This document shows positions 52,409 to 63,666 of a DNA stretch of 64,000 nt, in pieces. This DNA comes from a virus. Numbering within the stretch: position 1 is the stretch's first letter; every line of letters starts with the position of its first letter. Where the stretch lies: positions 186,001 to 250,000 of IMG/VR virus record IMGVR_UViG_3300044796_000662, one strand, 5' to 3'. A program made the position numbers and the translations under genes. The notes under the pieces were generated by a model. It made no database searches. It had not been told where the DNA came from and saw only the letters and a program-made list of their open reading frames with translations.

Positions 52409-54385
52409 TCACCGAGCGCGTTCGTTGAAGAACACGGCCAGGATAGGCTCGGCCTGTACATCCACATCTGTGAGTCGCTCAGCGGCGACCTTCTGATCTG
52501 GGTTTGGCACGACCTCCGTGAGGGGAACGTCCCGGAGGGTCATGATGTCGAGGTTCAAACGAACCTGTGCTTCAGCGTCCCGGAGGCACTGATAGCGGAG
52601 CTTAGTCAAGCCTGCCAGATTCGAGGCGTAGATGCCATCTATGGTTCCGTAGAGCTGGACCAACCCCAGAAGCACCTTCTGTGGAACGGTCGGAACCCCA
52701 GGCAGGTTGTCTGACGAATCCCCAAGCAGTGCGCGAAGAGTCACGATCTGTGACGGCCCCACACCCCACTCCTGCGTCAGTGCGTCGATGTCGTACAGCA
52801 CTTCCTTTCGCTTACCTTGTGCCGGCGTCAGTAGACGGTCGGTCTCTGTCACGAGCTGTAGAAGGTCACGGTCCGAGGAGAGGACCACGTTGTTCTGGCC
52901 CTTCAAGGTGCCACGCAGGAGGCTTGCGATGGCATCGTCGGCCTCCTCCCCCTCGTTGTAGAGCTGTGTAACCCCCAGAATCGGGAGCACCTCGCGCAGC
53001 CAGGCCACCTGGTCCCAGCGCACGCCCCCTGTCTCTTCTTCCGCGAAGCCGCTCGAACGGTTGGCCTTGTAATCGGCGTACTTGGCCTTGCGGGTTCGAT
53101 TCGAGCCATCCCAGACCACGTAGATGCTGGCCCCTGGGAACCGCTTGAGCAGGCTTGCGGTCGAGCGCAGAAAGCCGAAGAGCACGCCCGTGTGCCTCTG
53201 TTGCGTGTCCCGCATGTCCGACATGCCGGGCGCGTAGAAGCAGCGATAGGCGAGGTTGAAACCGTCGATGATGACGTTCTGGACTTCCACGCTGGTCTCC
53301 TCAATCTCGCGCTCGATCTCCGAGACGTCGTCTGACAGGTTGTCCAGGCTCTCTTGCAAGTCCTGCAACGTGAGCCACTTGAAGTACCGTCCCTCGATCT
53401 CCGAGAAGGGCGTCTCGACGAGGCTCTCGCGGACAAGGGGTACGAGACCGTCCCAACGCTGTGTGAGACCATCAAGCAGGATCGCTCGGTCCCCTTGCTC
53501 CTTGAGCTTGCTCGCATCGAGGGGGATGTAGAACGACCGAACGAGGTTGGAGCGATGCTCCAGCCCCTCAGCCCAGTCGTTCAGTTGCGTATAGACGTCG
53601 AGTCTCGGACGTATCCGGGTGATGAGCGTGGGCGCGGTAAGTGCTGTCTGGATGGTCGTGAAACTCTCGACCTTGGACACCCAAGACTGGAACTGGAGAT
53701 ACTCCTGGTAGTGCTTGTTCAGGCGCGCGAAGCCGACGAGCTTTGGGGCCTTGAGCAGATCGTAGAAGTCGTTGAACCAGTCACGGACGCCTGCGAAGCG
53801 GTCCATGGCCGGAGCCTTGGGCGCCTTGGAGACGAGCCGGAGGAAGCTCCGGGGCAGCGTGATGATCGAGTCCTTGGAGCGTAGAAGAACCCGTACCTGG
53901 ACCTTGTCCTCTTCGGGAATCTCCTCGATGACCTTCGCCTGGATCTGGCGATAGGCCCCTGAGGTGATGAGAACCGTGTCGTCGATACCGATCCCCTGGT
54001 CGGTCTCGACATGGATCTGCCGCTTCATCTTGTCGATGGCGGAGTTCTCGACGAAGGCTAGCTGCCGGACAGGACGCCCCCCGTTCTCGGGTCGGACGAT
54101 CTTCGTGAGCACCTTCTGGACGTACTTGGAGTTGTCCAGTCTGTTGTAAAGCGTATCGGGGTGCTTGTGCCGAATGAACGCGTAGCCATCGACGAGGTAG
54201 TGCACTACCCGGTCCTCACCGATCTGCGTGACCGCAGCCGGAATGAACACTTCGGCGCCCTTCACTGCGTAGGTGATGGAACGCCGGACGATGTCCGGGT
54301 CCTCCCCTTCGGCCTTGGAACTCAGTTCCAAGATGACCCACTGGTTGGGATCGCTCGTCACAACGACTACGCCCTCCTGGGCCAT
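52409..54385 (-). CDS. NusG-like antiterminator fused to FEN-type 5' nuclease
   Basis: 658 residues in one uninterrupted frame. Residues 15-125 form an NGN-type domain (QWVILELSSK, LVDGYAFIRH, SKYVQKVLTKIV, FVENSAIDKMKRQI). Residues 131-185 form a KOW barrel (GIGIDDTVLITSGAYRQIQA ... VQVRVLLRS). Residues 369-572 are a 5'-3' exonuclease: VIIDGFN (D374), YVVWDG (D426), EGEEADD (E480-D484), SSDRDLL (D505, D507), GDSSDNLPGVP (D556, D559) with an HhH. A helical linker of ~180 residues lies between. NusG/RfaH proteins hold RNA polymerase on DNA; FEN enzymes remove flaps and primers. The fusion is unusual. Overlaps the clamp-loader gene by 19 bases. Confidence 0.8.
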   Translation of the reverse strand: MAQEGVVVVTSDPNQWVILELSSKAEGEDPDIVRRSITYAVKGAEVFIPAAVTQIGEDRVVHYLVDGYAFIRHKHPDTLYNRLDNSKYVQKVLTKIVRPENGGRPVRQLAFVENSAIDKMKRQIHVETDQGIGIDDTVLITSGAYRQIQAKVIEEIPEEDKVQVRVLLRSKDSIITLPRSFLRLVSKAPKAPAMDRFAGVRDWFNDFYDLLKAPKLVGFARLNKHYQEYLQFQSWVSKVESFTTIQTALTAPTLITRIRPRLDVYTQLNDWAEGLEHRSNLVRSFYIPLDASKLKEQGDRAILLDGLTQRWDGLVPLVRESLVETPFSEIEGRYFKWLTLQDLQESLDNLSDDVSEIEREIEETSVEVQNVIIDGFNLAYRCFYAPGMSDMRDTQQRHTGVLFGFLRSTASLLKRFPGASIYVVWDGSNRTRKAKYADYKANRSSGFAEEETGGVRWDQVAWLREVLPILGVTQLYNEGEEADDAIASLLRGTLKGQNNVVLSSDRDLLQLVTETDRLLTPAQGKRKEVLYDIDALTQEWGVGPSQIVTLRALLGDSSDNLPGVPTVPQKVLLGLVQLYGTIDGIYASNLAGLTKLRYQCLRDAEAQVRLNLDIMTLRDVPLTEVVPNPDQKVAAERLTDVDVQAEPILAVFFNERAR

Positions 54386-55860
54386 GTGCGCTCGAATTCC
54401 CGTCGCCAGTCTTCCGGCGTCAGAATGCGATTCATCTCGTCCTCTGTTCCTTGATGGAAGGACAGCGGAACGTCAATGTTGCCTGGGTTGGAACGGCTCC
54501 GAGGCCGCCCCAACGGCACAGCCTTGTGGTCTTCGGAGGTGAGAGCGTAAGGGTCCCCTGAGCCGATAGCTCCGATGCCGTCCGCCCGCATCTTGCCGTT
54601 GCCCCCATTGGTTGCCGCGTGGACGATGGGGACTTGGGGTGCCGGAGAGGGGGAGGGTGGCGCCGCCGTTGTCACGGGAGACGGTGCAGACACCGGCTGT
54701 GACACCGCAGGAGGCGTTGAGGGGGTAGCTTGAACCGCTGCGGTCTGAACAGGGACCGAAGCGACGGCCATGGGTGCAGACACGGACAGCACAAGAGGCT
54801 GCGCCCCCATCTGTTGGGGAACGGCGCCGTTGGACTGCGCGAGGCTCACGATGTCGCAGACAAGGCTGATCCGCGACACTGCCCGATGCCGAAGGAAGTA
54901 TTCGGCCAGCTTGGTGCACCCCGTGGTGAACCGCTGGTAGACCTGCTCGGCCAGTTGCCGGTCCACGTACACGAAGTCGGCCGCCATGTTGTTGGCAAGC
55001 CGGAACGAGTTCATGGCCGCCTCGGCAAGACCTGCGGCCACCTGGTCAGCGGGCACTCGCTCGCATGCCTGGTCCACGAGTTCGAGAGCCTGCTTGGGGT
55101 TCCCGAGCGCAAGGAGGATCTGGTAGTACGTCGAGACGACACTGAGGTGTAGGTACTCTCGAACAGACTCGACCGTGACCGACCCCATCTGGGCGATCAT
55201 CTCCAGCTTGTTCAAGATGTCCCGGACGTGCCCGCCCGAGTGATCGATCACGATCAACACCGCGTCGTCTTGGTACTCGACCTTCTCGGTTTCGAGCACC
55301 ATTCGCATCCGCCCGAGCACGTCCTCACGAGTGACCTTACGGATCGGGTACGTCTCGCAGCGGCTCTGGATGGTCCCGCGGATGTTCTGAGGCTCGGTCG
55401 TACAGAAGATACCGAGGAGCTTCTTCTCCTCGATGGGCTTGAGCAGGACGTCCTGAGCCTCCTTGCTCATCCGGTGCGCCTCGTCGAAGAGGTAGATGCG
55501 GATGGGCGCCCCCATGGGCGGCATGTACGGGAGGTCTTCGAGCAGGTCACGGACGTTGGCAACGCCGCCGTTACTAGCCGCGTCGCGCTCCGTGAAGGCA
55601 CTGGGCTGGTCCTCCAGAATCGCGAGGCACTGCTCGCAGACGTTGCAGGGCTCCCACTCCTCACGGTTCAAGTTCTGACAGAGGGCCGCCCTCGCCAGCA
55701 CACGGGCAAGGGTGGTCTTGCCCTGCCCGTGACCGCCCGCGAAGATGTAGGACGTGTTCAGGATGGTCCCGTTCCTCAAGCGAGCCTTGATGAGCTGGAC
55801 GGATCCCTCCTGACCGAGCACCTCGGAGAACTTGCGCGGGCGGTACTTAGTGTCCCACAT
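54367..55860 (-). CDS. DnaX-like clamp loader ATPase
   Basis: 497 residues. MWDTKYRPRKFSEVLGQE start, Walker A GGHGQGKTT (42-50), zinc finger C61, C72, C75, C78, Walker B IYLFDEAH (122-129) and SRC motif (166-168), all in DnaX (tau/gamma) order. Residues 170-330 form the expected lid and collar helices. A Pro/Ala/Ser-rich linker (~350-420) ends in a short basic and acidic tail, shorter than tau. With the DnaN-like gene it implies a phage-encoded processivity system; delta and delta-prime partners are not seen. No ribosome site; CGGTGTAG lies 19 bases upstream. Confidence 0.85.
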   Translation of the reverse strand: MWDTKYRPRKFSEVLGQEGSVQLIKARLRNGTILNTSYIFAGGHGQGKTTLARVLARAALCQNLNREEWEPCNVCEQCLAILEDQPSAFTERDAASNGGVANVRDLLEDLPYMPPMGAPIRIYLFDEAHRMSKEAQDVLLKPIEEKKLLGIFCTTEPQNIRGTIQSRCETYPIRKVTREDVLGRMRMVLETEKVEYQDDAVLIVIDHSGGHVRDILNKLEMIAQMGSVTVESVREYLHLSVVSTYYQILLALGNPKQALELVDQACERVPADQVAAGLAEAAMNSFRLANNMAADFVYVDRQLAEQVYQRFTTGCTKLAEYFLRHRAVSRISLVCDIVSLAQSNGAVPQQMGAQPLVLSVSAPMAVASVPVQTAAVQATPSTPPAVSQPVSAPSPVTTAAPPSPSPAPQVPIVHAATNGGNGKMRADGIGAIGSGDPYALTSEDHKAVPLGRPRSRSNPGNIDVPLSFHQGTEDEMNRILTPEDWRREFERTWPRRA

Positions 55861-55887: not shown

Positions 55888-55905
55888 TTCAGGAATCCTG
55901 AACGG
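55885..55905. promoter_or_regulatory. Near-perfect 21-base palindrome, possible operator
   Basis: CCGTTCAGGA, one base, TCCTGAACGG: two perfect 10-base half sites around the stop codon at 55889. The tight centre favours a protein-binding dyad over an RNA hairpin, though a stem of eight with a short loop is possible. Confidence 0.4.
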
Positions 55906-56380
55906 TTTCCTCTGCGATGCTGGCGCTGACGACGTCGTTGACCAAGTCCTCGATCTTGACGTCCTTGGCGATCGAAACGAAGCCGTTCAGCTCCTCATTC
56001 CAGGCGCCGTGACGCTGAAGGATGGACGAGAACTCCTGGACGTCCGGCTTGCGGATCTTCCAGGACATCTCCCCCGACTTCTCGTCTTCCTCGCCGTAGC
56101 AGCGCTCCAGGAGGTGGTCGATGAGAGCCGTCCTCTGTTCGACGCCCAGCTCGTTGAACTCGTCCAGAGCGACTTCGATCAGGAAGTCCACCTCCAGAAG
56201 GAACTGAAGAACGCCAGAGATCTTGCGGACCTTGCCCAGGACAGGGCGACCGGACTCCTTGGAGGCCGTGTCCACGTAGATGTACTTGACGCGGGCCGTG
56301 GCCAGCTCGGGGTGGTAGCTCGGGATGAGCTTCAACGCGATCTGCTCCACCGTGTCGGCAATTCCGTAAACCTTAGCCAT
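55889..56380 (-). CDS. Degenerate phage metallopeptidase-like protein
   Basis: 163 residues matching the size and landmarks of the putative phage metallopeptidase family: ARVKYIYVDTASKESGRPVL, GVLQFLLEVDFLIEVALDEF, RTALIDH, then WKIRKPDVQEFSSILQRHGAW. In active-looking relatives the motif is HELxH followed later by HDxxEF. Here these read H89-LLER-93 and K111-P112-D113, so the general-base Glu and two zinc His are missing. It is probably a non-catalytic binding protein. It lies between primase and clamp loader, so a replisome accessory role is conceivable. Confidence 0.6.
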   Translation of the reverse strand: MAKVYGIADTVEQIALKLIPSYHPELATARVKYIYVDTASKESGRPVLGKVRKISGVLQFLLEVDFLIEVALDEFNELGVEQRTALIDHLLERCYGEEDEKSGEMSWKIRKPDVQEFSSILQRHGAWNEELNGFVSIAKDVKIEDLVNDVVSASIAEETVQDS

Positions 56381-57101
56381 CGTTTCTCTCCATCAGGCGG
56401 TTGAAGGGCTCTACACCCTCCCGAATGAATTTGCCGAGATACTCTTCACCCCGAAGCTCCCAGAGGTCCCCTGGGTCCTTCGTCATCTTGCCGTTGGGCA
56501 TGGGCAACTTGGCCCAACGGATGCCCTCGATCTGGTACTCACGCCCATGCTCCTTGTAGAAGCTGGCGGCGGCCTTTTGGCCAGTGGTGTCATTATCATA
56601 CGCAAGCACGATACGCTTGCATGTTCTCCGCAGCGTGGCGAGAAAGGGCCCAACGACACGTGCGGTCATGGTCGCGACCACCGCTGGGGAATGCCTCTGG
56701 ACCGGGAACAGGTCGTTGGCCCCCTCAACGAGGGTCACCGATTCCGTGGCCCAAATGTGCGGCATCGCCTGCCCGAGTCCGAAGAGGATCGGCTCCCCGG
56801 TATCGAGCATGAAGTTCGAGTTGAACTTGCGGCTCCTGTCCACGGGGCGGAACTGCACCCCACGGATCTCCCCGAGCGCGTTGGTCAACGGATAGACGAA
56901 CACGTCGTCAAGAACCGTCCCCGAACCGTACTGTTTGAGGAACTTCGGATCGTAGTCCAACGGCGGAAGCGTCCGCTTCAAGTAGCCGATGTTGTACTCC
57001 CTGATCTGCTCGTCGGAACAGCCGCGGACGTTGAGCGCCTCGACCACCCGCTCTGTCATGAGCGAGCGGGCGTACTCGACTAGTTGATCAAGCCACGCCA
57101 T
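56373..57101 (-). CDS. DnaG-type primase catalytic domain (TOPRIM)
   Basis: 242 residues. The RNA polymerase-domain segment VFVYPLTNALGEIRGVQFRP (67-86) and SRKFNSNF (90-97) are followed by TOPRIM motifs VTLVEGANDLF (E126, D130) and IVLAYDNDTTGQKA (D169, D171), with a final KDPGDLWELRG. Primases make RNA primers for lagging-strand synthesis. There is no N-terminal CHC2 zinc finger and no C-terminal helicase domain, so those functions must come from another gene or the host. The ATG overlaps the upstream gene by 14 bases. Confidence 0.8.
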   Translation of the reverse strand: MAWLDQLVEYARSLMTERVVEALNVRGCSDEQIREYNIGYLKRTLPPLDYDPKFLKQYGSGTVLDDVFVYPLTNALGEIRGVQFRPVDRSRKFNSNFMLDTGEPILFGLGQAMPHIWATESVTLVEGANDLFPVQRHSPAVVATMTARVVGPFLATLRRTCKRIVLAYDNDTTGQKAAASFYKEHGREYQIEGIRWAKLPMPNGKMTKDPGDLWELRGEEYLGKFIREGVEPFNRLMERNDG

Positions 57102-58293: not shown

Positions 58294-58985
58294 TTGGGTC
58301 CTCGGAGCCGTTTCAGGCCCAGTGACCAGGTTGTATCAGAAGATTGCTCTTCGAAGCCCTGGTAGGCAGACTTCGCGTGGTCCAAGAACGCCTGGTTGTG
58401 CGTGACGAGAAGGATCGGGATGTTCGTCGTTTCCGACAACTTCCTGAGGAACTGGCCGGTCTGATCCACGTAGTAGTCACTGACGGCCGACAGAGTCTCA
58501 TCCAGGAACAGGACAGGGAACTTCTTGAGGCGCATGAGCGCCAAGAGCCGCAGCGTCAAAGACGCGATGCTCGACACACCACCGCCCGTTGTTTCTAGCG
58601 GCGGTCCGACGATCTCGATGTCGTTCTGCGTGCGCTTGACGAGCAGGTCGATGGAGACCTTCCCTCGGGACTGACCGACCTCAGCCTGAAAGGAGAGGTC
58701 GATGTCGAAGAAGATGGACTTGAGCCCCTCGGTCACGATGGACTCGATGGCCTTCACCTGGTCCATGACCAGCTTGTCCATGAGCAGGCGAAGAAGCTCC
58801 CCTGTTTTGGAGAGCTTCTCCACCCGCTCGGACAACACCGTGATCTCCCTCGCCGTCTTGTCCCGCTGCTGGACAAGGGAGTCCCTCCGCGTCTGAACAC
58901 GGGTCGCGGAGGTCTTGAGTGCTTCAACCCTGGTCTTCCAGGCGTCGGTCACTCGTACGACGGCATGAACCGAGTCACCGTGCAT
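58290..58985 (-). CDS. SbcC/Rad50-like C-terminal half (signature + Walker B)
   Basis: 231 residues, ATG at 58985 with AGGAG at seven bases. A coiled coil of about 60 residues (RDSLVQQRDKTAREITVLSE) leads to the ATPase C-lobe: ETTGGGVSSIASLTLRL (signature, 131-147), PVLFLDETLSAVS (Walker B D162/E163 and D-loop, 157-169) and LLVTHNQAF (H196). It has no Walker A, which is on a separate protein (62422-63666). Such lobes must pair to form an active ATPase. The gene starts inside the end of the clamp gene (37-base overlap). This looks like a naturally divided Rad50/gp46. Confidence 0.8.
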   Translation of the reverse strand: MHGDSVHAVVRVTDAWKTRVEALKTSATRVQTRRDSLVQQRDKTAREITVLSERVEKLSKTGELLRLLMDKLVMDQVKAIESIVTEGLKSIFFDIDLSFQAEVGQSRGKVSIDLLVKRTQNDIEIVGPPLETTGGGVSSIASLTLRLLALMRLKKFPVLFLDETLSAVSDYYVDQTGQFLRKLSETTNIPILLVTHNQAFLDHAKSAYQGFEEQSSDTTWSLGLKRLRGPK

Positions 58986-60247
58986 GAGATTGCTCCTGCC
59001 GGAACCTGCCCTCCCTCGGGCAGTTCACCGGCCACCGTCTTGCCCTCGGCATCGAGGTAGAACCTGTCGATGGTCCGGAGGTAGGCGCCACCCTTGGGGC
59101 GCTTCTCGCTCGGGTCGATCGGGTAGACCCGAAGCTCGACGGTGCCACCCTCGGCGTCCTTGAACAGCGAGAGGAGCTGCTTGCGGTTGATGAACGGCTC
59201 CAGGGTACGGTCGGGCTCCGCCAGCGACGAGTCCTTGCCGACGCTGATGAACATGCTCTTGATGCCCTTGGCGTTACCCTCGGCCGCCTCCAACTGAAGA
59301 GTGTTGGAGTCCTTGTTCCAGAGGAGCCGCACCTTGTCGTGCTTGTCCCCCAGCTCCTCGCCCATGTAGCCGAGCGCGTCGATCATCTCGGCCTTGGGGA
59401 TCTTGAAGACGAACTTGTCGCCGCCGAGCCCGTAGTACGAGTGCTTGGCGTGCAGCTTCGTGGTGTGCGTCCAGCCGAAGACCCGGCTTTCCGACTCGTC
59501 GCAGACGAAGGTCTTCGTGTCCGTAGACTTGATGACCGCCGTCCCCTCGATCTTGCCGAGGAAGCTGAGAAGCAGACCGAGATGCTCGGCCTTGAGCGCG
59601 AAGCTCTTGCCCTTGAACGCCTCGCAGTCGAAGTAGAACGCCTGCGAACCGTTGGCAGCGTAGAGCACGCCGTCACCCTTCTCGTAGGGCTTGATCATCT
59701 GACCCTTGTTCTTCGGGTCCTCGACCTCCGCGTCCTTGTCGAACATCTGGATGGTCTTGTGCTGATCCTCGGCACGGGGATTGTTCTCCCCGTGGAAGTC
59801 CTTGGACAGACTGAGAGCCTTGCGAAGGACGGCGGCGGGGAACTTGCCGGTCTCCTTGGCGGCCTTCAGCTCCTTGTCGAAGGTAGCCAGCCACTTCGGG
59901 TCGAAGGCGGGGCGGGTGCCGCCGGCCCCACGCCCGGGGTCGTAGCTGACGCTGAACTGGTCGCCATCCCTCTTGGACTCGAAGCTGATCGGGCCCGAGA
60001 AATACTTGAACGCCCCGATCGATTCGTACGGGTAGGCGAAGACGCCCTCACCATCCGCGTCGAAGATGTCCATGCGTGCCCGAGCGACATGGTTCGCGTC
60101 GGCCGAGTACATGTACCCCTCGGTCGAGTTGCGGATGTAGAAGAGGAAGCCCGTGTCCCTCTCCTTGTTGCACGCCCTGGGGACCACCGTCTGAACGGCG
60201 TCGATCGCGGCGTTCAGGTGGGCGGCTTGCACTGAGAACTTGATCAT
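58949..60247 (-). CDS. DnaN-like DNA sliding clamp
   Basis: 432 residues from the ATG at 60247 (GAGG six bases upstream; two in-frame ATGs just before it are less good). It starts IKFSVQAAHLNAAIDAVQTV, as beta clamps do, and ends ISCTVTRFMPSYE, comparable to the C-terminal strand of DnaN. The middle shows three repeated beta-rich domains with inserts (MIKPYEKGDGVLYAANGSQA, GKSFALKAEHLGLLLSFLGK). At 432 residues it is somewhat longer than bacterial DnaN (~370). With the DnaX-like protein it would tether polymerase to DNA. Assignment is by N/C-terminal pattern and context. Confidence 0.6.
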   Translation of the reverse strand: MIKFSVQAAHLNAAIDAVQTVVPRACNKERDTGFLFYIRNSTEGYMYSADANHVARARMDIFDADGEGVFAYPYESIGAFKYFSGPISFESKRDGDQFSVSYDPGRGAGGTRPAFDPKWLATFDKELKAAKETGKFPAAVLRKALSLSKDFHGENNPRAEDQHKTIQMFDKDAEVEDPKNKGQMIKPYEKGDGVLYAANGSQAFYFDCEAFKGKSFALKAEHLGLLLSFLGKIEGTAVIKSTDTKTFVCDESESRVFGWTHTTKLHAKHSYYGLGGDKFVFKIPKAEMIDALGYMGEELGDKHDKVRLLWNKDSNTLQLEAAEGNAKGIKSMFISVGKDSSLAEPDRTLEPFINRKQLLSLFKDAEGGTVELRVYPIDPSEKRPKGGAYLRTIDRFYLDAEGKTVAGELPEGGQVPAGAISCTVTRFMPSYE

Positions 60248-60255
60248 GTTCATCC

Positions 60256-60528
60256 TCATTTCTTCTCGTAGGCCGAGAAGGCTGACTCGGTCTTCGTCAA
60301 GTCGGACTCGTACTCACCGAGCATCTGTTCGAGTTCCGCTTTGGCCTTGTCCCGCTCCCCCACGAGAGTCTTCGGGTCGTAGCCGGCGGCCTTGATCTCC
60401 TTGATCAGAGCCGCCAGTTCCTCTTTCTTGGCCTGAAGCTGGCCGCCGAACTGGGCCTTTTTGGTAGCCACAGCGTCCGTTCGCTTCTGAAGGTCGTCGA
60501 TCTTCTTCTTGATCTCGTCGGGCGTCAT
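60256..60528 (-). CDS. Small coiled-coil protein
   Basis: 90 residues, almost entirely one charged helix hairpin: TPDEIKKKIDDLQKRTDAVA, then AKKEELAALIKEIKAAGYDP, and AKAELEQMLGEYESDLTKTE. It lies inside the Rad50/Mre11 gene group and ends in an overlap with the clamp gene region. It could be the missing part of the Rad50 coiled coil or a clamp partner; both are inference. Confidence 0.55.
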   Translation of the reverse strand: MTPDEIKKKIDDLQKRTDAVATKKAQFGGQLQAKKEELAALIKEIKAAGYDPKTLVGERDKAKAELEQMLGEYESDLTKTESAFSAYEKK

Positions 60529-60546: not shown

Positions 60547-61434
60547 TTATTCGTCGATAGCGACATCCTCTACACCTGACGCTGGGGAAATCTGAGGACG
60601 ATTTTCAGAGGTCATTACCTGGCCTTCCGGGCACGCGAAGACGAACGGGCAGAAGCCGCAGGCACCCTTCTTCGCCCTGGCGGGGAACGCCTGTGCGGCA
60701 ATCGGCAGCCTCTTTCGCTGTTCGATCTCCTCGATGGTACGTATGACCGTCTCTTGCAGCTCGTCTACGGCGTCCCGCGTGGGGACTGACCAGTCCACAG
60801 CCTCGTCGGGCGGGAAGCGCCAGAAAACGAACGCCACCTGGTCGGGGAGCGACCCTGTCTTGCGGCGGTGAAGCATCGAGTACCAGTGGAGCTGCTCGAT
60901 GTCCACGTACTTGTCCCGGTGCCTTGAGCCCTTACCATCGAGGATGATGAGGTCCCCGAGGGGGTGCAGACGTCGCATCCGGAAGTCACAGCGTCCCCCG
61001 AGCATGTGCCCGCTGATCTCGGAGTCCAGCTTCACCTCTGCGGCCGCATCCGTACCGAGCAGCTTGAACTTGCGGATGATGGCAAGGCTGTTCGGGATCG
61101 CCTCTCGGATCTCCTGTATGACCTGGTCCAGAGAGTGCGGGCCGTTCTTCTTGAGCTTGGGATCCTTCCAGTTGAAGATCCCGCCGCCCTTGATCTCGTT
61201 ACGCATCGTCTCGGCAACGACAGAGGACACCCGACTGAGCATCTCTTTGGCGGGATCGGGGAGCTTCCACATCTTGTCGCGGTAGAAGTGCTCGACGATG
61301 ATGCCGATGCAAGACCCGTAGAGCATGTTCACCCGGTTCTCGGGCGTCGGCACCTTGGTCTTGTTGACGTACGAGTGCCAATACTGCCTGGGGCACTCCC
61401 TGTACTTCTTGAACCCGGAGTAGGAGAGGTACAT
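60547..61434 (-). CDS. Cas4/RecB-type PD-(D/E)XK nuclease with Fe-S cluster
   Basis: 295 residues. N-terminal YSGFKKYRECPRQYW supplies C14; C-terminal CGFCPFVFACPEG supplies C259, C262 and C268, the 1+3 Cys arrangement of Fe-S nucleases (Cas4, AddB). Nuclease core: EHF (48-50), GGRCDF (D150), LIILDGKGS (D166, K168) and the QLHWY motif (Q181, Y185). Such enzymes process DNA ends with 5' or 3' polarity. It overlaps the SbcD-like gene by one base (start and stop share it), so end resection by this cluster is a reasonable inference. Confidence 0.82.
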   Translation of the reverse strand: MYLSYSGFKKYRECPRQYWHSYVNKTKVPTPENRVNMLYGSCIGIIVEHFYRDKMWKLPDPAKEMLSRVSSVVAETMRNEIKGGGIFNWKDPKLKKNGPHSLDQVIQEIREAIPNSLAIIRKFKLLGTDAAAEVKLDSEISGHMLGGRCDFRMRRLHPLGDLIILDGKGSRHRDKYVDIEQLHWYSMLHRRKTGSLPDQVAFVFWRFPPDEAVDWSVPTRDAVDELQETVIRTIEEIEQRKRLPIAAQAFPARAKKGACGFCPFVFACPEGQVMTSENRPQISPASGVEDVAIDE

Positions 61435-62420
61435 TAGCCCACGCCCGTTTCTGCTCTTGCGCGTTCCAGGTAGTCGATGGCGAGCTGCTTGACGTCGGAA
61501 GCGAACGAGAGCCCCTGGATGTTGGCCTCGATGGTCTGCGACACGTCAAAGGACGCCTCGCTCTGCAACCGCTCAATGAACTGGTCGATGTTCTCGTGCT
61601 CGCGCTCTGCGCGTTCCTTGCGTTCGAGGTCGAACACTTCGGACGCCGGCGCGACGGACAGCAACAGAGGAGTAATCTCGGCACGCCCCGGCTCGAAGCC
61701 CAAGAGTGCCACCTTTGGGGATCGCTGAAGGTTCTCGTTGATGAGAGCCCCGCGGCTGACAGCACCGAGATTGACGAACTGCTTGCCCCCGAGCTGAACG
61801 ATCCCCTGATCCTTGTGCCAGTGCCCGAAGCACCACACATCTGGACCGTCCTTCGTGACAAGCTGGTCGTACCGGAAGACAGGCTCGTTGAAGAATTCGC
61901 GCACGTTCGGGGGCGGTTCCTCTCCTGCCAGCGAGTGCACGATGGCCACGAGGAAGTCATCACCCGGCTGCTTCTGAATGGCCCTCAGGTCGTCAGCGGT
62001 ACGGTTCGCACTGTAAGGCACCCCGACCACTCGCACGCGCATCCCGCCGTCCTCGAAGACCGTGCTCCGCAAGTGCCGAAAGACCCCCGTCTCGTAGAGA
62101 ACACCCAGAGGTTGACCGGCCACGCTGTCGAGTCGGTTGTAGGCGATGTCGTGGTTGCCCTCGACGCAATACGTGGGCACCCCATACGTGTTGTGCACGC
62201 TAGCCGTTTCCACAACGATCGCGTGGGGGTTGCGACTGGCAGCCTTGATGTGGAAGTAGTCGCCCCCATCGAGGACGGCCTTGACCTCATGCTCCTTGGA
62301 GAAAGCCCCGATCTGCCGGAGGTTGGACCAGATCTCCGCGGGGTAGTCCGCCTTCCAGGAGGAAGGGCTACGGTCGCAGAGATGGGTGTCTGTCCGGTAG
62401 AGCAGAGAGACGCGCGGCAT
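61434..62420 (-). CDS. SbcD/Mre11-like nuclease
   Basis: 328 residues. Calcineurin-like phosphoesterase motifs in order: RTDTHL (D11, H13), DGGDYFH (D54), VEGNHD (N89, H90, D91), AIVHS (H162), CFGHWHKD (H200, H202). These bind two manganese ions in Mre11. The C-terminal third is charged and helical (LERKERAEREHENIDQFIER), the region that contacts Rad50 in the family. It sits one base after the Rad50 N-half gene, as T4 gp47/gp46 or sbcCD genes are paired. Confidence 0.88.
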   Translation of the reverse strand: MPRVSLLYRTDTHLCDRSPSSWKADYPAEIWSNLRQIGAFSKEHEVKAVLDGGDYFHIKAASRNPHAIVVETASVHNTYGVPTYCVEGNHDIAYNRLDSVAGQPLGVLYETGVFRHLRSTVFEDGGMRVRVVGVPYSANRTADDLRAIQKQPGDDFLVAIVHSLAGEEPPPNVREFFNEPVFRYDQLVTKDGPDVWCFGHWHKDQGIVQLGGKQFVNLGAVSRGALINENLQRSPKVALLGFEPGRAEITPLLLSVAPASEVFDLERKERAEREHENIDQFIERLQSEASFDVSQTIEANIQGLSFASDVKQLAIDYLERARAETGVG

Positions 62421-62421
62421 A

Positions 62422-63666
62422 TCAGGCCAGCTTCCTCTCCTCGTGGCTGTGCCCGATCTTGACGGGCTGTGCGCACGAAGGACAGAAAGGCAGGGACTTG
62501 ATCTCTCCTACCAGTACCTTCTCGTCAGCGAGAGTCTTGTCGTAGTTGTTCTCCAGGTTCGAGATGGTCTCTTCGAGCGAGGCCATTCTCGACGCGAACG
62601 ACGAGAGCTGGAGGAGTCGATCCCTGGCCACCTTGAGGCCCGTGGGGTCCGGCGTCGTGACGTTCTCGACCCCCTTGAACTTGACCCACTGATCCTGCAA
62701 GCTCTGGAGCTTGTTCGTCCAGGTCGAGAGCTTCTCGAACTTGTCCGCGGCAGCGACGACAGGAGCGGCGATCGGCGTCGGGATGGTCTCGACACCCATG
62801 AGCGACTTCACAGCCGTCGCGCGATCGATCACATCGGACTGGTAGCGGGAGAGCTTCTCGAACTCACTGCGCTTGGCCAGCACTGCGTCGATGGTGGGGA
62901 CTGGCGTTTCGACAGCCTTCTTCAGGGTATCGACGCGGAAGCCGATCGCTCGCAGTTCCTCGATGTAGGAGTCGAGAGACTCGACTGCCTCCTGAACGAC
63001 GGTGATCTGCCCGAGCTTCTTCTCGACCGCGACGACTCCCGCCACGGCCTCGTCGAGGCCCTCGTACTCGTTGATCTGATGCGTTAGCTCGGTCATGTCC
63101 TTCTCCCGGACCTTCCTTGTGGAGACGGCCTCTTTGCGGTCCTTCTCGACGAACCTCATCGCGACGTTGATGCGGTCAAGATGGGCAACGTCGGAGAACA
63201 CGTCAGCGACAACTCCGCCCGACTGGTCGAGCAAGAAGATGTTGTCGAACTGGTCAGCGATCTGGAGCAGCTTGGCGTTGGGCCCGATCTGCACCATCCC
63301 GAAGTCCTTGGCGAGCTTGGGCCTCTCCAAGAAGTCCGGGGTCCCTCTGTTGGGGACCCCGTAGTCCTGACCGTTGAACGTGTAGCTGTTGCGCTTGTCC
63401 CCCTTCTCCCACTTGAGGTCGAAGCCCTCCGTGCGGAGGTGCACCGAGCAGTAGCATTCGCAGGTCTTGGACCCGCGCAGACGCCTATGACAGGCGACAC
63501 CATGACGGACGAACGAGGTCCCAGTCGCGCCCGTGAGGGCCGCGCGAACGGCCCTCACGATGGCGCTCTTGCCGATGTCGGACTTCCCGACGAGGGCGGT
63601 GAACCCGTCGATGTTGATCGAGACGTGCTCGATCGATTGGAAGTTCCGGACCTCTACGTCGATCAT
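62422..63666 (-). CDS. SbcC/Rad50-like N-terminal half (Walker A + zinc hook)
   Basis: 414 residues. Starts MIDVEVRNFQSIEHVSINID and has Walker A VGKSDIGKSAIV (26-37) as in Rad50 N-lobes. A CECYC cluster lies near 69-73. Residues about 190-390 are coiled coil (VREKDMTELTHQINEYEGLD, SLEETISNLENNYDKTLADE). It ends with a CxxC zinc hook, FCPSCAQPVKIG (C395, C398), 16 residues before the stop. No signature or Walker B follows: those are on 58290-58985, about 3.4 kb downstream. Dimerising through the hook and through the two lobes would rebuild a Rad50-like machine. Confidence 0.82.
   Translation of the reverse strand: MIDVEVRNFQSIEHVSINIDGFTALVGKSDIGKSAIVRAVRAALTGATGTSFVRHGVACHRRLRGSKTCECYCSVHLRTEGFDLKWEKGDKRNSYTFNGQDYGVPNRGTPDFLERPKLAKDFGMVQIGPNAKLLQIADQFDNIFLLDQSGGVVADVFSDVAHLDRINVAMRFVEKDRKEAVSTRKVREKDMTELTHQINEYEGLDEAVAGVVAVEKKLGQITVVQEAVESLDSYIEELRAIGFRVDTLKKAVETPVPTIDAVLAKRSEFEKLSRYQSDVIDRATAVKSLMGVETIPTPIAAPVVAAADKFEKLSTWTNKLQSLQDQWVKFKGVENVTTPDPTGLKVARDRLLQLSSFASRMASLEETISNLENNYDKTLADEKVLVGEIKSLPFCPSCAQPVKIGHSHEERKLA

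Follow-up and report, generated by a model that had tools for sequence, protein, structure and literature searches.

A group of huge phages encodes a single protein in which a NusG-type transcription-factor module is joined to a flap endonuclease (FEN). The example described here lies in a 64,000-nucleotide window (positions 186001-250000 of a 362,937-base virus record), and the identity of its parts, a NusG-family NGN+KOW pair followed by a FEN 5' nuclease, is close to certain. The initial annotation had recognised the 658-codon frame and singled out its build as non-standard; the frame exists, and no such fusion was found in the annotated phages searched, but its strand needs correcting, as it is read on the minus strand and stops interrupt the plus strand across the same interval. 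The gene, its parts and its neighbours are listed in the Table.

Table. The NGN-KOW-FEN fusion gene and neighbouring genes, in window coordinates.
Feature	Position	Strand	Evidence
Sigma-region-4-like gene, 211 aa	51736..52371	-	Sigma70_r4 7e-16
NGN-KOW-linker-FEN fusion gene, 658 aa	52409..54385	-	open frame; 34 other distinct huge-phage sequences with the same fusion
FEN / Pol I-type 5' nuclease domain, residues 368-654	52424..53284	-	Pfam; invariant acids; Foldseek to M. smegmatis FEN
Helical linker, residues 189-367	53285..53821	-	predicted helices (modest confidence); dN/dS
NusG-like NGN (~residues 14-128) + KOW (~137-186)	53822..54385	-	profile, TIGR00922, AlphaFold, Foldseek
Clamp loader (DnaX-like)	54367..55860	-	PHROG 5846 7e-57; DNA_pol3_delta2 1.6e-24
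Toprim primase-like gene, same cluster	56373..57101	-	Toprim_2 3.3e-7; PHROG 47 DNA primase 5.1e-15
Candidate sliding clamp	58949..60259	-	PHROG 947 polymerase processivity factor, E 0.012 (weak match)

Support for the NusG identity of residues 14-188 is modest from the single sequence and firm once the family is included. With the window sequence alone there are modest matches to the T. maritima NusG structure 2lq8 (1.9e-4), TIGR00922 (3.3e-4) and LoaP (1.9e-3), and the KOW match falls under the curated Pfam cut-off. A profile of the NGN-KOW family matches 2lq8 at 5.4e-12, TIGR00922 matches 25 of 25 family members (best 2.8e-11), and hhalign of the family against E. coli NusG gives 94.6%; the KOW matches of the family profile include uL24, a ribosomal protein in which KOW domains are also found. 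The AlphaFold model of this half (pLDDT 91.7) recovers the NusG/RfaH/Spt5 fold, and the best 50 Foldseek matches are all NusG, RfaH or Spt5/DSIF chains or complexes containing them. Their whole-length TM-scores are mostly only ~0.3-0.45, probably because the arrangement of NGN and KOW differs between structures, and the KOW alone superposes on the M. tuberculosis NusG C-terminal domain with 1.1 A rmsd. These approaches agree on the NGN+KOW pair first proposed for this region, and residues 1-190 do match NusG profiles. However, TIGR00922 scores of 20.5-23.8 bits lie under the curated equivalog cut-off of 135.7 bits, and the module is therefore a divergent paralogue, a member of the family and not NusG itself.

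The order NGN then KOW is that of the NusG, RfaH, LoaP and UpxY factors, from which the fusion differs by its added C-terminal helical arm and FEN nuclease. Residues W16, Y68 and F70 are invariant in all 29 sequences compared, down to ~20% identity and including stand-alone relatives, and they align with RfaH W4, Y54 and F56, which are implicated in binding the β' clamp helices (PMC2871177). The loop I164-F165-G166 with which NusG contacts Rho is lost in RfaH (PMC7593976), and here too I-F-G is absent, being replaced by L/F/M-R-S in all but one sequence, with S170 invariant and R169 present in 28 of 29.

The two Pfam models for the 5'-3' exonuclease family both match the C-terminal half and together cover residues 371-622: 5_3_exonuc_N at 1.1e-29 (103.7 bits; cut-off 34.3) and the C-terminal SAM-fold domain 5_3_exonuc at 4.1e-13 (50.1 bits; cut-off 40). 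The best match among solved structures is the FEN region of M. smegmatis Pol I (5e-30; Foldseek 2e-17), and identity to the mycobacterial and E. coli FENs is ~24-25%. A complete active site had been proposed, and none of the ten acids concerned (D374, D426, E480/E481, D483/D484, D505/D507 and D556/D559) varies among the 24 homologues aligned. In having the complete fold and acids the domain resembles Pol I-type FENs such as the N-domain of Taq or mycobacterial Pol I, ExoIX/Xni and T5 D15, but it is joined to a transcription-factor domain and not to a polymerase domain. T5 D15 may be needed for late gene expression, but the papers examined on this point do not state it and we do not count it as evidence here. 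In T4 a FEN-family RNase H gene lies near gene 33. A conserved ILxxFF near the C-terminus of the fusion was considered as a PCNA-type clamp-binding motif but is not claimed as one: judged by eye, its position is like that of the helix that ends Pol I FEN domains, and in some relatives the motif is eroded.

Structure prediction gives no confident mutual placement of the two halves (pTM 0.49). In relatives the linker between them varies from 98 to 201 aa and is 11-26% identical to that in the window; this poor conservation and variable length would fit a loose tether without specific geometry. In close pairs dN/dS is 0.03-0.07 for NGN-KOW, 0.13-0.21 for the linker and 0.07-0.11 for FEN, indicating purifying selection in all three, and the linker is therefore translated and kept, though loosely. 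A stop within the linker had been named as a sign of two separate genes; there is none in any fused homologue.

The fusion gene shares its first 19 nt with the clamp-loader gene, in keeping with its reported position after a clamp loader, and a sigma-like gene begins 37 nt downstream of the fusion stop codon. The initial annotation spoke of sigma-like genes in the plural, and it is the position directly downstream that stands: there is a single region-4-like gene, two stretches of its product match region 4, no region 2 was detected in it, and Sigma70_r2 has no match anywhere in the window's genome. In the fused clade the sigma-like proteins share a conserved C-terminal FNILREVKLPQW-type motif, and no clear clamp-binding motif was seen on their tails. 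A putative phage metallopeptidase gene (55889-56380, minus strand; PhageMetallopep 1.1e-24) lies between the primase-like and clamp-loader genes, and upstream of the replication cluster (60547-63666, minus strand) there are genes for a PD-(D/E)XK nuclease, a calcineurin-like phosphoesterase and an AAA/SMC-like ATPase, a set resembling SbcCD or T4 gp46-47.

Relatives were counted after removal of near-copies (>97% identical), which leaves 35 fused sequences including that of the window, three with separate adjacent NusG-like and FEN genes, and ten without FEN. The search for the same fusion in other phages, suggested at the outset, thus yielded 34 more distinct huge-phage sequences; those fused proteins that were aligned have lengths of about 567-673 aa and share 38-47% identity with that of the window. 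The locus survey used profiles for NGN-KOW, FEN, clamp loader and sigma; the alignment-based scans used N-terminal patterns only, so that relatives with a diverged NGN are sampled less. The clamp loader is upstream of NGN-KOW in every locus having that flank and a sigma-like gene is downstream in every surveyed relative (in L065 some 1.6 kb further on); wherever the flanks are present, the genes thus run clamp loader – NGN-KOW – [FEN] – sigma-like. The triad of clamp loader, NusG-like and sigma-region-4 genes recurs without FEN in distant huge phages (L002 and L091-L103), with NGN domains ~20-31% identical to the window's, and it is therefore wider and probably older than the fusion. One of these is LR745208.1 (L002; a 485-kb metagenomic phage, unannotated), in which the NGN-KOW domain stands alone.

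Several clamp-loader genes in these loci are themselves interrupted. Those at L055:5263-7989, L065:5218-7956 and L069:5198-8005 carry an in-frame insert of ~430 aa at Walker A (GxGK / TT), which begins with Cys and ends with HN before Thr and is an intein, probably with a homing-endonuclease domain. The LR745208.1 clamp loader (L002:13200-15086) has a shorter, mini-intein-like in-frame insert at another site (LFDE|C...N|CHRL), and the family-A polymerase of the same phage matches in three pieces within one 1763-aa frame, which suggests inteins there too.

In the NGN tree the fused forms cluster together (96/93), and two split forms, L030 and L050, branch from within them, the latter being the nearest sequence to the window's (100/96); L037, with separate genes and no linker, and the FEN-less clusters fall outside. 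The tree is midpoint-rooted and has long branches (L037, L092 and L096), which leave its deep order uncertain. The simplest account is of an ancestral clamp loader – NusG – sigma cluster that gained a FEN gene between NusG and sigma, followed by one fusion with a helical linker and later by two fissions, after which the linker stayed with NusG. The two genes of L050 are a clean coupled pair, the stop codon of the NusG half and the start codon of FEN sharing the sequence ATGA. The NusG and FEN frames of L030 diverge at a run of seven A residues (L030:3665-3702), which could reflect slippage or a homopolymer/sequencing error.

PF02739 occurs once per genome, in the fusion, in eight of eight fused genomes, these being metagenomic records that may be incomplete. 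A family-A DNA polymerase is present in nine of nine genomes tested, that of one relative matching only DNA_pol_A in Pfam with no FEN match, and the only detected phage FEN is therefore the one carried on the NusG domain. Pol III alpha was not found in the nine genomes. Nor was there a match to the largest (β') RNA polymerase subunit in these nine, where very divergent subunits could be missed, and we rejected a phage-encoded multisubunit enzyme as the partner of NGN on this basis.

We read the fusion as a phage NusG-family elongation or antitermination factor that acts on host RNA polymerase (RNAP) and carries the phage flap nuclease, an interpretation that we hold with belief and doubt about evenly balanced; tethering of the nuclease to RNAP, as a separate point, likewise stands at an even chance. 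Since the RNAP largest subunit was not found in these phages, NGN would dock on the β' clamp helices of the host enzyme. NGN-KOW would then provide RfaH/LoaP-like antipausing and antitermination without recruiting Rho, and the helical arm would keep the nuclease near the transcribing polymerase. At meeting points of replication and transcription, FEN would act there on primers, flaps or RNA:DNA ends, trimming them and thereby processing the breaks used for loading the sliding clamp. The putative function with the best support is the one also suggested in the initial annotation, a link between a transcription complex and the processing of primers, flaps or R-loops. More tentatively, the transcribing RNAP would bear the flap endonuclease as an accessory covalently joined to a NusG-type domain, with the transcription complex itself processing primers, flaps and R-loops. 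The task of the tethered FEN may be removal of primers or flaps at encounters, removal of R-loops, or processing of breaks for clamp loading.

The cluster of clamp loader, NusG, (FEN) and sigma may constitute a module for replication-coupled transcription following the logic of T4 late transcription. T4 couples its late transcription to replication through the clamp loader and sliding clamp, a sigma and a DNA nick with the role of an enhancer (PMC2988020), and these nick enhancers and clamp-activated transcription provide a precedent for processing breaks where clamps load. As in the T4 module (gp45 clamp, gp44/62 loader, gp33 and gp55; PMC2988020), clamp-loader and sigma-like functions are clustered here, and the phage appears to use host RNAP. 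However, T4 has no NusG-FEN fusion, and gp55 is of the region-2 type (PMC7892883) whereas the sigma-like protein here matches region 4 only. The likeness is one of logic, not of membership.

The fusion could instead be passive, two translationally coupled neighbouring genes having joined while their products, an antiterminator and an ordinary primer-removal nuclease, continue to act independently and the join mainly sets stoichiometry or co-localisation. The arrangement of the genes might promote a fusion even if their functions are not coupled, the two genes are separate and adjacent in L037, the linker evolves fast, and L050 (with its ATGA overlap) and L030 have apparently re-split, so that the covalent link is dispensable at least in those two lineages. 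We nevertheless regard this as a possible but rather doubtful account, given that 35 distinct sequences retain the fusion across a deep divergence (~38-47% identity to the window's) with the linker under purifying selection, and that only two splits are nested in the fused clade. It is unlikely, in our estimate, that the RNAP-borne FEN serves to clear R-loops or collisions, removing RNA or flaps around the polymerase, and not to support late transcription; FEN enzymes are established to cut 5' flaps and RNA primers, but no sequence feature separates the two roles, and since the proposal is a narrower form of our preferred reading the confidence in each overlaps. That NGN-KOW has lost its RNAP role and now acts as an adaptor through which the nuclease binds nucleic acid or the replisome is improbable: uL24 is among the KOW matches, the Rho-contact loop is replaced by a conserved RS pair and the upstream partner is a clamp loader, but the NGN fold is complete and its RNAP-contact positions do not vary, even in nuclease-free stand-alone relatives, and the constant downstream neighbour is a sigma-like gene. 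Misassembly or an accidental join between two genes can be dismissed, since numerous independent contigs contain this frame and nothing was found in favour of either.

Both halves of the protein belong to known families; what is new to us is their combination, together with the conserved cluster. We know of no DNA nuclease fused to a NusG-family protein. No named or annotated phage with the fusion was found, and only the unannotated LR745208.1 has NGN-KOW, standing alone; in bacterial species genomes no fusion was found and there was one FEN-only match; and the best 50 matches among predicted viral structures include FEN-type and NusG-type proteins, none with both as judged by aligned length and name. 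In the part of the open literature covered, we found neither a published NusG–flap endonuclease fusion in a phage nor a paper on NusG in 'huge phages'.

The fusion in huge phages suggests a previously undescribed physical link between the copying and the reading of a genome. The genomes concerned reach about 530 kb and appear to depend on host RNAP, and if the nuclease works while docked on that enzyme they would offer a direct test case for the coordination of transcription and replication. An RNAP-carried FEN, if true, would be a new way to couple transcription to DNA maintenance, and the clamp loader – NusG – sigma cluster, conserved even where the nuclease is missing, suggests that uncultured huge phages have a wider coupling system.
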